The notes beneath the pieces are model-generated. The model was not told the origin of the DNA. It was given only the letters and a program-made list of their open reading frames with translations, and did not search any database. This document shows positions 41,307 through 44,703 of a stretch of 64,000 nt of DNA, piece after piece. Positions within the stretch are counted from its first letter, which is position 1; each line of letters opens with the position of its first letter. Location of the stretch: positions 806,001 to 870,000 of the forward strand of contig NZ_CP018787.1 in NCBI RefSeq assembly GCF_002127965.1. The letters run 5' to 3'. The stretch is from Oxalobacter formigenes (GTDB lineage Bacteria > Pseudomonadota > Gammaproteobacteria > Burkholderiales > Burkholderiaceae_D). The position numbers and the translations under genes were made by a program.

Positions 41307-42404
41307 ATGGATCTGAAATTACTGACGCCACTGAAAGTGGGTGAAACAAAACTGGCGAACCGGGTCGTAATGGCTCCTTTGACGCGCTGCCGGACAGCCG
41401 AACCGGATAATGTTCCGACTGAATTGAACGCAGAATATTATGCACAGCGTGCCACGGCAGGCCTGATCATTTCAGAAGCAACCCAGATATCACGGTCGGG
41501 TCAGGGTTACGCGGGTTCAGCAGGGATTTATACCGATGCGCAAGAGGCCGGATGGAAAAAAGTTGTGGATGCCGTGCATGCGAAAGGAGGAAAAATGTCG
41601 GCACAGTTATGGCATGTGGGGCGCATGTCCCACTCCTATTTCCAGCCCGACGGCAAAGCGCCTGTCGCTCCATCGGCAATCGCTGCCGAAGGCGCCAAGT
41701 GCAACATCATTGTAGATGGTCAGCACAAGTTTGTGCCTTGTGATACTCCCAGGGAACTGAGTGTCGGGGAAATAGGCCAGATTGTCGACCAGTACAGAAA
41801 TTCGGCGGCCAGAGCTGTCAGGGCAGGATTCGATTTTGTCGAAGAACATGCCGCAAACGGCTATTTGCTACAGCAGTTTCAGGCGACCAATACCAACAAG
41901 CGTACCGACAGGTACGGTGGCTCGCTCGTCAATCGTGCACGGTTGACTCTGGAGGTCCTGGACGCGATGCTGGAAGTCGTTGACAGGGAAAAACTGGGTG
42001 TCCGGATTTCACCGTATTTCAATATCAATGGCATTGCCGATGCCGAGCCTGAACAAATGGCATTGTATCTAGCCGACGAGTTCCACAAGCGGGGAATTGC
42101 CTATCTCAGTATTGCCGAGCCGAGCTGGGTGGGGGGGATTGAATTGACTGACACATTCAAACGAAAAATAAGGGAAACTTTTTCCGGAACGCTAATTTAT
42201 GCAGGTGAATATACTCCCGAGAAGGCGGAAGCAGCCATACAGAGTGGTTTGGCAGACGCAATTGCGTTCGGGCGACTTTTTATTGCAAATCCTGATCTTG
42301 TCGAAAGGATTCGGCAGAATGGCCCATATAACGTGCCGGACAGGGCCACTTTTTATACTGAGGGATCAAGGGGTTACACGGATTATCCTTTTTTGAATGT
42401 CTAA
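41307..42404 (+). CDS. nemA: Old yellow enzyme family FMN oxidoreductase, NemA type
   Basis: A 365-residue flavoprotein that reduces activated C=C bonds with NADPH (N-ethylmaleimide, maleimides, nitrate esters in NemA). The N-terminal LKVGETKLANRVVMAPLTR, the FMN-binding AQLWHVGRMSH, the HAANGYLLQQF segment and RYGGSLVNRAR match the family. AAAGGAGAATTCG precedes the ATG. In E. coli nemA is controlled by NemR and lies in an electrophile response operon; no NemR or glyoxalase gene is here, so regulation is unknown. The gene stands alone. Confidence 0.9.
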   Translation: MDLKLLTPLKVGETKLANRVVMAPLTRCRTAEPDNVPTELNAEYYAQRATAGLIISEATQISRSGQGYAGSAGIYTDAQEAGWKKVVDAVHAKGGKMSAQLWHVGRMSHSYFQPDGKAPVAPSAIAAEGAKCNIIVDGQHKFVPCDTPRELSVGEIGQIVDQYRNSAARAVRAGFDFVEEHAANGYLLQQFQATNTNKRTDRYGGSLVNRARLTLEVLDAMLEVVDREKLGVRISPYFNINGIADAEPEQMALYLADEFHKRGIAYLSIAEPSWVGGIELTDTFKRKIRETFSGTLIYAGEYTPEKAEAAIQSGLADAIAFGRLFIANPDLVERIRQNGPYNVPDRATFYTEGSRGYTDYPFLNV

Positions 42405-42461
42405 ATCAGGATAGCGACAGAAGAACGCTTTTAAGCGAAAATGAATGTGTAATAAAAGACG

Positions 42462-42479
42462 ATTGTTACAATTGTTACA
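42462..42479 (+). promoter_or_regulatory. Tandem 9-bp direct repeats before peptide gene 1
   Basis: TTGTTACAA (42462-42470) is followed by TTGTTACAT (42471-42479). Tandem GTTAC repeats are the kind of site bound by OmpR/PhoB-family regulators. The same element stands at 42934-42951 before peptide gene 2, each preceded by AATAAAAGA. Confidence 0.55.
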
Positions 42480-42530
42480 TCTTTCATCGTAAAAAAAGTC
42501 AACCGGATGGCTAATGGGTTCGTTAAAAGA

Positions 42531-42548
42531 CGTGATCCAGTCGGATTG
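42531..42548 (+). promoter_or_regulatory. Leader hairpin, copy 1
   Basis: GTGATCC (42531-42537) pairs with GGATTGC (42542-42548) around AGTC, using two G-U pairs. Homologous hairpins stand before the other two secreted peptide genes, with changes that keep pairing. Confidence 0.6.
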
Positions 42549-42582
42549 CATTTTTTTTAATAAGAAATAAAGGAACTTAAAT

Positions 42583-42678
42583 ATGAAGAAAGTCATTGCT
42601 ATTCTGATCTCCGGTTTGTTCGCTTCTGCCGCTTTCGCAGCTGCTCCTGCTGCTGAAAAAGCACCAGCCAGGAAATAA
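42583..42678 (+). CDS. 31-residue secreted Ala/Pro/Lys peptide (peptide 1)
   Basis: A short frame with a ribosome-binding site (AAAGGAAC) and a signal peptide: MKKVIAILISGLFASAAFA, cut after AFA. The mature part is about 12 residues, AAPAAEKAPARK. The signal peptide is nearly the same as that of peptide 3 (43513), which has a much longer Lys/Ala/Pro tail, so this may be a truncated paralogue. It has a conserved leader and its own strong terminator, so it is a complete transcription unit. Function unknown. Confidence 0.65.
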   Translation: MKKVIAILISGLFASAAFAAAPAAEKAPARK

Positions 42679-42692
42679 TTTTTTGGCATGAC

Positions 42693-42724
42693 AAAAAAGC
42701 GGGACGAAAGTCCCGCTTTTTTTA
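42693..42724 (+). terminator. Rho-independent terminator after peptide 1
   Basis: AAAAAAGCGGGAC pairs with GTCCCGCTTTTTT around the loop GAAA. Confidence 0.88.
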
Positions 42725-42933
42725 TTAAAAATCCGGTCTGGAACAGGAAAAGGTAGATGAAATTTTCAAGGAGAAAATTTTCACAATTGCTGGAAGAAAT
42801 ATTTTGATCCTGATTTCAAAAGACTTTTTTGCCGATTGCTGTCCTCGGATTACAAAGGGCTGAATTCAGGAGGAAGTCGGGATAAATGAAGAAAAGGGAT
42901 TTTAAAAGAAGTTAAAAGTTGAATAAAAGAAAT

Positions 42934-42951
42934 TTGTTACAAATGTTACTT
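42934..42951 (+). promoter_or_regulatory. Tandem 9-bp direct repeats before peptide gene 2
   Basis: TTGTTACAA (42934-42942) is followed by ATGTTACTT (42943-42951), matching the element at 42462-42479 in sequence and in distance to the leader hairpin. Confidence 0.5.
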
Positions 42952-43003
42952 TTTTTTCGGGAAAACCGGTCATCTGATGAAGCGCTTGACCCGTTAAAGG
43001 GCG

Positions 43004-43019
43004 TGATCCGTTCGGATCA
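43004..43019 (+). promoter_or_regulatory. Leader hairpin, copy 2
   Basis: TGATCC (43004-43009) pairs with GGATCA (43014-43019) around GTTC. Compared with copy 3 the second and third pairs change from T-A/A-T to T-A/G-C with both sides altered. Confidence 0.6.
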
Positions 43020-43052
43020 TATTTTATTTAACAATAAAACAGGAATTAATAT

Positions 43053-43259
43053 ATGAAAAAAATCATCGCTTTTCTGATTTCCGCCTTGTTCGTCTCTGCC
43101 GCATTTGCCGATGTTCCCGTTGTAGAAAAATCGATTGCGACAGGATCTGAAAGCCTCGTCAATGCACAAGGCTTAAACAATAATGCAGATGAGGAAACGC
43201 CAGCTGCCGAGGCACCAGATGCAGCAGATGCTTCAGGAGCACAAGATGCCGACGATTGA
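43053..43259 (+). CDS. 68-residue secreted acidic peptide (peptide 2)
   Basis: A frame with signal peptide MKKIIAFLISALFVSAAFA (cut after AFA) followed by about 49 residues rich in Asp, Glu, Ala and Pro (for example DEETPAAEAPDAADAS), without Lys in the second half. It shares signal peptide, leader and terminator style with peptides 1 and 3 but has opposite charge to peptide 3. It is probably an unstructured periplasmic protein. AGGAATT precedes the ATG. Function unknown. Confidence 0.75.
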   Translation: MKKIIAFLISALFVSAAFADVPVVEKSIATGSESLVNAQGLNNNADEETPAAEAPDAADASGAQDADD

Positions 43260-43275
43260 ATTTTTCAACGTACGC

Positions 43276-43306
43276 GAAAAAGCGGGACATCTGTCCCGCT
43301 TTTTTA
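43276..43306 (+). terminator. Rho-independent terminator after peptide 2
   Basis: AAAAAGCGGGACA pairs with TGTCCCGCTTTTT with a minimal loop; the stem core is the same as in the terminator of peptide 1. Confidence 0.88.
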
Positions 43307-43456
43307 TTTCGGGCAGTTTCAACGCAGGACTAAACATTTTGTGAGTCATCTTTATTGAAGTGGAAATGAAATAAGCCTTTTTCGATGGATGAAAAATATT
43401 TTAAAAAATTTTTGAAAAAAGTGTCAACCGACCTGAAAACTGGCGCGTTAATGATC

Positions 43457-43476
43457 GTAATCCTTCATGGGATTAC
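43457..43476 (+). promoter_or_regulatory. Leader hairpin, copy 3
   Basis: GTAATCC (43457-43463) pairs with GGATTAC (43470-43476) around TTCATG, seven Watson-Crick pairs. Confidence 0.6.
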
Positions 43477-43512
43477 AAAGTTTTTTTCTTAAATATTTGA
43501 GGAATTTTTAAA

Positions 43513-43755
43513 ATGAAAAAATTAGTTGCTATCCTGGTTTCCGGCCTGTTTGCTTCTGCAGCTTTCGCTGCTGCTCCTGCTGCTCCTGCAAAAGCAGCTC
43601 CAGCTCCTGTAGCTGAAAAAGCAGCTCCAGCTCCAGCCGCTGAAAAAGCAGCTCCAGCTAAAAAAGCTAAAAAAGCAAAAAAAGCAACCAAAGCAAAAAA
43701 AGCTGACAAAAAAGCAGAAAAAAAAGCTGACGCTAAAGCACCAGCTGCTAAATAA
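43513..43755 (+). CDS. 80-residue secreted Lys/Ala/Pro-rich protein (peptide 3), Asr-like
   Basis: Signal peptide MKKLVAILVSGLFASAAFA, then a tail made of AAPA and EKAAPAPA units (about 20-48) and a very basic KKAKKAKKATKAKKADKK part (about 50-75). There is no aromatic residue after the signal. The composition resembles the enterobacterial acid-shock protein Asr, a disordered periplasmic protein, and also histone-H1-like tails, but the signal peptide argues for export. Ala and Lys codons are nearly all GCT/GCA and AAA, consistent with high expression. It has a conserved leader hairpin and a strong terminator. GAGGAAT precedes the ATG. Confidence 0.8.
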   Translation: MKKLVAILVSGLFASAAFAAAPAAPAKAAPAPVAEKAAPAPAAEKAAPAKKAKKAKKATKAKKADKKAEKKADAKAPAAK

Positions 43756-43769
43756 TTAGCCTTCAAGCT

Positions 43770-43801
43770 AAAAAAAGACGGGTTTATCCCCGTCTTTTTT
43801 T
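43770..43801 (+). terminator. Rho-independent terminator after peptide 3
   Basis: AAAAAAAGACGGG pairs with CCCGTCTTTTTTT around a short loop. Confidence 0.88.
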
Positions 43802-43850
43802 ATGCGCGTTTCATGTAACATATGCTTTTTAACAATGAGAAGAGGAAAAA

Positions 43851-44294
43851 ATGCTCAAGCTGAAGAAAATAATACTGGTGTTCTTATGCCTGTTGCCTTT
43901 TACAGCTCCGGCTATGGCCGAATCTACAGGCATGAATTTTCCCGTCACTACGTTGAAAGCAGGCAAACATCTTATCCGTGCAGAAGTCGCTTCTACTGAG
44001 GCACAACGCGAACAGGGACTGATGTTCAGGAGAGAACTGCCGAAAAACAATGGCATGCTTTTCGTTTTTGACCGGCCTGCTCGTTCGTGCATGTGGATGA
44101 AAAATACTGCTTTGCCTCTTTCGGTCGCATTTATCGATGCGAACGGGACTATCCTGAACATTGAAAAAATGGAACCGTTTACACTGGATTCACATTGCAG
44201 CAAGGGATGGATCCGCTATGCGCTGGAAATGAACAAAAACTGGTTTGCAAAAAACGGTATCAAGGCCGGCAGCAAAATAAGCGGTTTACCTTGA
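43851..44294 (+). CDS. DUF192 family exported protein
   Basis: A 147-residue protein with a signal peptide (MLKLKKIILVFLCLLPFTAPAMA, cut after AMA) and a DUF192 domain: EVASTEAQREQGLMFRRELP, then GMLFVFD and CMWMKNTALPLSVAFID. The family is a small beta-barrel fold with no established function, widespread in bacteria and archaea. GAAGAGGAAAA precedes the ATG. No terminator is clear behind it. Confidence 0.88.
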   Translation: MLKLKKIILVFLCLLPFTAPAMAESTGMNFPVTTLKAGKHLIRAEVASTEAQREQGLMFRRELPKNNGMLFVFDRPARSCMWMKNTALPLSVAFIDANGTILNIEKMEPFTLDSHCSKGWIRYALEMNKNWFAKNGIKAGSKISGLP

Positions 44295-44703
44295 TAGCTG
44301 GCTGCGTTTTATTAAACTTTTTTTCATAAAATCATTTATTTCCTCTTTTGAAGAGATCGCTTTTGTTTTTCAAAAATAAAAGCATTCTTTTGGCTTTTTC
44401 TGCCCGTTTCAACTTTTCTTCGCGGTCCTGATCTGAAGAGACCGCTTATTCCTGTTTCCCGTTTGGTTTCCTTGAGCGCGCTCAAAAATGATTTGGCGCG
44501 CCCATGAATAATGAAGTGTTATCAAAGAATGTGATATTGTTGCCTTTTGGAAATATTTTATTGGTAAATGTTTTTTCAAATGAGGCTTGTTGATCAGGGT
44601 TTATCGCCCGTTTTTTGTTTTTTCATTTTTTGGGGAAATCCGGAGTGCTGTTCGAATTGGAAATTATTGGATTCCGGCTGGCCGTGGTGCAGAAATAGTC
44701 AAG
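44295..44703. other. Intergenic region, 409 bases, upstream of the c-di-GMP gene
   Basis: AT-rich. It holds a perfect 14-bp palindrome TTGAGCGCGCTCAA (44472-44485), a likely protein-binding site, and two related 13-base stretches GAAGAGATCGCTT (near 44350) and GAAGAGACCGCTT (near 44435). A frame open from 44587 has no ribosome-binding site. No gene was recognised. Confidence 0.5.

Follow-up and report, generated by a model that had tools for sequence, protein, structure and literature searches.

Small secreted-looking peptide genes of Oxalobacter formigenes with putative ECF-type promoters and a shared leader hairpin

Introduction

Oxalobacter formigenes is an oxalate-eating bacterium of the gut. 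We analysed a stretch of 64,000 nucleotides (the window, positions 806001-870000 of a genome of 2,468,871 bases in total) in which three small genes, here called units 1 to 3, lie in a row, each with a short hairpin ahead of its start codon. An earlier note on this DNA had described the hairpin as a covarying, functional RNA element, perhaps a thermosensor, a pH sensor or the target of a small RNA (sRNA), that controls a family of envelope peptides. By comparing the units with those of O. paraformigenes, the named relative used here, and of other Burkholderiaceae, we arrive at a different reading, which we hold to be probable: the units belong to a regulon of an extracytoplasmic function (ECF) sigma factor, their products are small secreted-looking peptides rich in Ala, Pro and Lys, and their mRNAs start with a 5' stem-loop that most likely serves as a stabiliser.

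The three peptide units

The gene before units 1 to 3 (41307-42404, NF007899) resembles N-ethylmaleimide reductase, and the one after them (43851-44294) is a DUF192 gene. Each unit consists of a leader, a small open reading frame (ORF) and a GC stem followed by a T run, and each looks like a transcription unit of its own with a monocistronic layout. All three ORFs start with MKK(V/I/L)(I/V)A...LF.SAAFA, which by eye resembles a signal peptide; as the earlier note had said, this start and the type of terminator are common to the three. The ORF of unit 1 (42583..42678, + strand, as are all features below unless stated) codes for 31 aa, the signal-peptide-like start and a mature part of about 12 aa. 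Its counterpart in O. paraformigenes (L002, 8333 onward) has 61 aa; unit 1 is thus possibly a truncated version. Unit 2 (43053..43259, 68 aa) has a similar start and an acidic mature part of 49 residues (K+R-D-E = -11), and unit 3 (43513..43755, 80 aa) is Ala/Pro/Lys-rich and Asr-like, with a mature part of 61 residues (K+R-D-E = +13). Units 2 and 3 are thus neighbouring paralogs whose signal peptides are similar and whose mature parts have net charges of opposite sign.

Searches of Pfam and NCBIfam with the three peptides gave nothing above cut-off, and unit 1 had no match at E<=1. The likeness to Asr (NF033636) lies in the signal-peptide-like start and the Ala/Pro/Lys-rich region behind it; unit 3, however, reaches 17.7 bits against a cut-off of 50, units 1 and 2 do not match, and unit 2 is acidic rather than basic. 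The terminator-like stems, found by eye, are GCGGGAC-GAAA-GTCCCGC with a T run in unit 1 (42693..42724), a stem with a T run in unit 2 (43276..43306) and GACGGG/CCCGTC with a T run in unit 3 (43770..43802); a terminator scan of the region does not list these 3' stems.

Putative ECF-type promoter boxes upstream of the hairpins

The earlier note had also pointed to similar bases before the hairpins. The similarity is real and extends further than described, to a two-box element, GTCAAC-N17-CGTT, whose promoter nature had been missed. In the alignment of Oxalobacter leaders a GTCAAC box, 17 variable bases, a CGTT box and the hairpin follow one another with strict spacing. In unit 1 the putative -35 box GTCAAC lies at 42498..42503 and the -10 box CGTT(AA) at 42521..42526, 17 bp apart. 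Unit 2 has GTCATC (42969..42974), one base off GTCAAC, and CGTT(AA) at 42992..42997, and unit 3 has GTCAAC at 43423..43428 and CGTT(AA) at 43446..43451, both with the same 17-bp spacer. Each gene would accordingly be read from its own ECF-type promoter.

These boxes can be compared with a promoter studied by mutagenesis. In a study of SigAb of Acinetobacter baumannii, that sigma factor requires a -35 GTCAAC, a -10 CGTT and a 17-bp spacer; a spacer of 16 is tolerated and one of 18 is about threefold worse (PMC12153292). Units 1 and 3 agree with this promoter letter for letter, beginning with the identical -35 of unit 1, and unit 2 agrees bar one base. In the same study the SigAb promoter showed no activity in E. 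coli unless sigAb was present (PMC12153292), so RpoE is apparently no reader of it.

In the genome of O. formigenes itself the pattern GTCAACCN{15,18}CGTTA occurs at three places, two of which are units 1 and 3 (unit 2 has GTCATC). The third copy (L014, 1345481-1345508, minus strand) has no peptide gene behind it; as a candidate for a further unit it scored 14.7 bits (E 0.08), and we took it for a chance occurrence. Sigma-70 promoters were also considered for the units and rejected, as a scan found 3 sites against 2.4 expected, two of them on the plus strand inside ORFs and the third on the minus strand. This last site (TTGACA, 18, TAAAAT; 11/12 letters) lies at 43427-43398 across the -35 box of unit 3 and may reflect antisense transcription or chance.

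Conservation of the putative promoter among relatives

Relatives were retrieved with a peptide profile that is blind to the leader, built from 12 peptides whose leaders had been seen. At E<=1e-5 the profile matches 63 of 79 Burkholderiaceae genomes and 37 of 44 genera; among 370 genomes of the wider class it matches one, the window's own. Of the 26 retrieved loci from other genera, 25 were parsed (L118 being the exception), and all 25 have GTCAAC-N16/17-CGTT upstream, 54-103 nt before the start codon chosen by the script. Among 40 further profile matches, mostly those next in rank, GTCAAC-N16-18-CGTT occurs within 250 nt in 37; L155, L160 and L162 have no such motif within that distance, and the motif of L156 is 218 nt distant from the start. 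By hand arithmetic, the chance expectation for the motif across all these loci is well under one.

For the analysis of leaders we assembled 73 units: the 3 of the window, 9 from the genus and 61 from the family, the latter picked by a pattern that allows spacers of 16-18. L155, L156, L160 and L162 were left out (no motif, or a motif too far from the ATG), as was L118, and the leader of L117 extends for just 28 nt after CGTT. A spacer of 16 is found in 35 units and one of 17 in the other 38, so that all 73 have one of the two lengths.

The leader hairpin and its possible roles

The shared hairpin before the three start codons is real. The stems have 7-8 bp and end 32-36 nt ahead of each ATG: GTGATCC-AGTC-GGATTGC in unit 1 (42532..42549; two G-T pairs), starting 8 nt after CGTT, GTGATCC-GTTC-GGATCAT in unit 2 (43003..43020; one G-T pair) and GTAATCCT-TCAT-GGGATTAC in unit 3 (43457..43476), all three located by folding and by a stem scan. 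For the 30 nt that contain the hairpin in units 1, 2 and 3 the folding energies are -7.7, -8.9 and -10.1 kcal/mol (p 0.015, 0.015 and 0.005 in comparison with shuffles), and the whole-leader folds have z values of -1.4, -1.9 and -3.1. Each hairpin of the window is therefore modest taken alone, and the relatives carry the weight.

Two O. paraformigenes units share this leader. Over all 73 units, the 30 nt that begin 4 nt after CGTT have a mean z of -1.77 against dinucleotide shuffles, with values below zero in 64 and p<=0.05 in 31. A stem with a score of at least 5 is found in 60 of the 73 leaders, against 17.5 expected from shuffles; in the control stretches, the next 30 nt downstream, mean z is +0.16 and a stem occurs in 7 of 65, against 10.7 expected. 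The stem starts a median of 9 nt after CGTT. At least one unit with a stem is present in 27 of 30 genera, and the first unit per genus has one in 25 of 30. The leader element that the earlier note proposed as functional is thus shared, conserved in relatives and placed before a family of exported-looking peptides.

The stems themselves vary widely: the 60 comprise 35 distinct 5' arms, and the loop, 4 nt in 42 of them, ranges from 3 to 8. By eye there are two kinds, GATTC-N4-GAATC (GATCC/GGATC in some Oxalobacter) and a CCTCAGG type. The near constancy of the GATTC-N4-GAATC palindrome in the main class, the prevalence of the 4-nt loop and the lack of extra covariation in that class are what one would expect if the inverted repeat acted as DNA instead of RNA, as an operator to which a dimeric regulator binds where transcription starts. 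We consider this unlikely, given the number of different arms, the range of loop lengths and the occurrence of different stems under the same promoter in at least five genomes (G064, G086, G039, G071 and G065). Moreover, pairing is retained where sequence is not: outside the GATTC class the stem is kept in 28 of 40 leaders, against a mean of 11.5 and a maximum of 19 in half-swapped chimeras (300 trials). The conserved GATTC/GAATC core, common to units of many genera, could also be a target or seed for a trans-acting sRNA or an RNA-binding protein that coordinates the peptide set, a role to which we give very little credence, as the loop sequence is not conserved (no candidate sRNA was sought).

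The three hairpins of the window score as terminator-like because a T run follows them, which would suit an attenuator or an early pause that limits the escape of RNA polymerase. By eye, however, the T run is missing from most leaders of the family, the window stems contain just 3 G-C pairs, and a terminator would be unusually close to the start at about +20; such a role is quite improbable.

A sensory RNA acting on translation, whether thermosensor, pH sensor or another kind, was the earlier note's own suggestion. The leaders are indeed structured: the Shine-Dalgarno (SD) region of unit 3 is paired with a U-rich stretch in a second, AU-rich hairpin of 8 bp (43485-43504), and in unit 1 a weaker second hairpin touches the SD. 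The conserved hairpin, however, excludes the SD, the O. paraformigenes ortholog of unit 3 shows no counterpart of the second hairpin, stem sequences and loops are highly variable, and across 65 units there is no excess of structure in the 30 nt that follow the hairpin. An Rfam search of 41500-44500 returned 25 matches at E<=5, all under the gathering score; those to isrG and Afu_254, which cover the leader of unit 3 or the low-complexity portion of its coding sequence, were set aside. We regard sensing as very unlikely. The earlier note was right, then, about the leader element and the peptide family, and its interpretation as a sensor, made with the promoter overlooked, is not supported for either temperature or pH.

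Covariation in the stem

The claim of covariation stands in part. The three window hairpins contain one two-sided change (G-C to A-T), and three units of a single genome reveal little covariation on their own. In an alignment of 14 leaders there are 10 cells with two-sided changes against 5.8 in shuffles (15 of 500 as high), the covariation score is 0.319 against 0.242 (22 of 500), and pairing is 82.7% against 28-48% when the partners are slid by 1-3 columns. Percent paired was no better than in shuffles (68 of 500), nor was the number of pair types (499 of 500); the G144 row, which has a longer stem, was misaligned and scored as partly unpaired in this test. The search of relatives with a covariance model, which the earlier note had proposed, was run with a model built from 14 leaders (12 from Oxalobacter and 2 others): of 66 family loci outside the training set it recovers 28 at E<=0.1, and the window units, training rows themselves, at E 2e-13 to 3e-11.

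Direct repeats upstream of the promoters

Units 1 and 2 carry the direct repeat TGTTACA-N2-TGTTAC, found by exact-pattern search, at 42464..42478 and 42935..42949. In 13 Oxalobacter genomes the exact pattern has 5 occurrences, every one ahead of such a peptide unit (the other three are L086, L087 and L089), and a control pattern has none. At four of the sites the second GTTAC begins 24 nt before the -35 box and at the fifth, by eye, 14 nt, one helical turn closer. A related arrangement is seen in the family, where TGTAA-N5-TGTAA repeats with a 10-bp period lie upstream of the -35 box in 12 of 61 units (L109, L114, L157, L169, L172, L173, L181, L183, L184, L185, L187 and L188, with a run of them in L157); the reversed control gives 0. 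These repeats start 19-21 nt before the -35 box in 11 units and 29 nt before it in one. We take both kinds of repeat to resemble sites for response regulators of the OmpR/RstA kind, and units 1 and 2 may thus bear an additional upstream response-regulator box.

A candidate sigma factor

A search of the O. formigenes genome for Sigma70_r2, which could miss a sigma factor with a strongly diverged region 2, gave four matches. Two frames, one of 837 codons (at about 38754 of the window) and one of 309 codons, were taken for RpoD and RpoH, judged by length alone. The remaining two are of ECF type: an RpoE equivalog (TIGR02939, 303 bits) and a member of the PRK09047/NF006550 family (G000:C1:2432023-2432586(-); 276.6 bits, cut-off 173), which is encoded in a cluster with DUF3619 and DUF3106 beside an acetolactate-synthase-like frame. 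DUF3619 may be a membrane anti-sigma factor. It is present in 58 of 60 family genomes; in genus g5 it and the peptides are jointly absent (2 of 2), a weak association, as the peptide profile also fails to match 14 other genomes, and DUF3619 is present in those of the 14 that were checked for it.

Outside the Burkholderiaceae, GTCAAC-N16/17-CGTT lies within 350 nt upstream of the NF006550 match at 26 of 47 loci (21 of 40 and 5 of 7), and a reversed-pattern control gave 0 of 40. The NF006550 sigma gene is therefore most likely autoregulated there, and this arrangement is the strongest link between that sigma factor and the motif. The most likely reader of the boxes in O. formigenes would be its own PRK09047/NF006550 sigma factor.

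The arrangement also recalls SigAb, whose operon of sigma factor, membrane anti-sigma factor and periplasmic protein (PMC12153292) resembles the sigma-DUF3619-DUF3106 layout of Oxalobacter; the two sigma factors are likened here by promoter and layout, not by sequence. The direct targets of SigAb, which are sigAb, relA and an sRNA, differ from the secreted-looking peptides found here, and SigAb is there called Acinetobacter-specific on the basis of a search among gamma-proteobacteria (PMC12153292). It is the one sigma factor of this GTCAAC/CGTT kind that we found in the open-licence literature of PubMed Central (PMC). The same literature yielded no mention of DUF3619 or DUF3106 and no description of such a regulon; the peptides have no established searchable name, so this silence is weak evidence of novelty.

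Interpretation

Since the bases before the hairpin have the form of an ECF-type promoter, control is most likely exerted on transcription, and the hairpin would lie at the 5' end of the mRNA. Transcription would start about 6-9 nt after CGTT; with a stem that begins 8 nt after CGTT, the hairpin is placed at, or a few bases from, that end. Small stem-loops at or near the 5' end stabilise the ompA and papA messages, and a hairpin added to the 5' end of bla mRNA stabilises it and impedes RppH (PMC3997798); the leaders studied here would be alike in position. Our preferred reading, that of an ECF regulon with a stabilising 5' stem-loop, would then run as follows. The stem-loop would hinder decay that depends on the 5' end (RppH/RNase E), and slowed decay would give long-lived messages for abundant small exported peptides, which may serve the envelope under stress. 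Units 1 and 2 would receive an extra input from a response regulator.

Several results weigh against this reading. By the score criterion, 13 of the 73 leaders have no stem. Among the leaders with GATTC-N4-GAATC, covariation of the flanking pairs does not exceed what column composition predicts (28 of 32 against 26.6; 17 of 32 against 18.9), so the core may be conserved for its sequence. The units are related to each other, so the p-values given above overstate the case. Outside the genus, exact GTCAACCG-N15-CGTTAA has 20 sites against 31 control sites by hand count; the number of exact sites is thus uninformative, and they stand out only by where they lie, with 9 of the 20 in front of peptide genes of this kind. 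The promoter was not found upstream of Oxalobacter's own NF006550 sigma gene, and in the Burkholderiaceae it lies upstream of 1 of 29 parsed NF006550 genes, so the link between sigma factor and motif rests on orthology; the autoregulatory site is mostly gone in this family. Finally, a profile search found no peptides in genomes outside the family that have the NF006550 sigma factor, and the regulon therefore differs there. The single Burkholderiaceae gene with the promoter (L120, GTCAAC-N17-CGTT) may carry a remnant of autoregulation.

More tentatively, as a conjecture somewhat short of an even chance, the regulon may be Burkholderiaceae-wide, with a PRK09047-type sigma factor, GTCAAC-N16/17-CGTT and a transcript-initial hairpin inherited as one cassette for sigma choice and 5'-end protection. 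In two sub-classes this cassette would be adjusted by response-regulator boxes that keep a constant register relative to the -35 box. The output of the regulon, which would serve the envelope, would be tiny exported peptides, some basic and some acidic, that evolve fast and are for the most part disordered.

If these proposals are correct, the PRK09047 family of ECF sigma factors, whose NCBIfam entry ('RNA polymerase sigma factor') names no function, would gain a target set and a promoter, as well as a link to SigAb. It would become testable why an ECF promoter is coupled with a hairpin at the 5' end, and what role the many small exported-looking Ala/Pro/Lys peptides play in the envelopes of Burkholderiaceae, including those of a gut commensal of interest for the prevention of kidney stones.

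The exact GTCAACCG-N15-CGTTAA motif also stands before other conserved small genes in other genera (L069, L070, L072, L079 and L080), which suggests a wider regulon. Among these, L069, L070 and L072 code for a short cytosolic-looking protein, and L079 and L080 for a small cytochrome-c-like protein.

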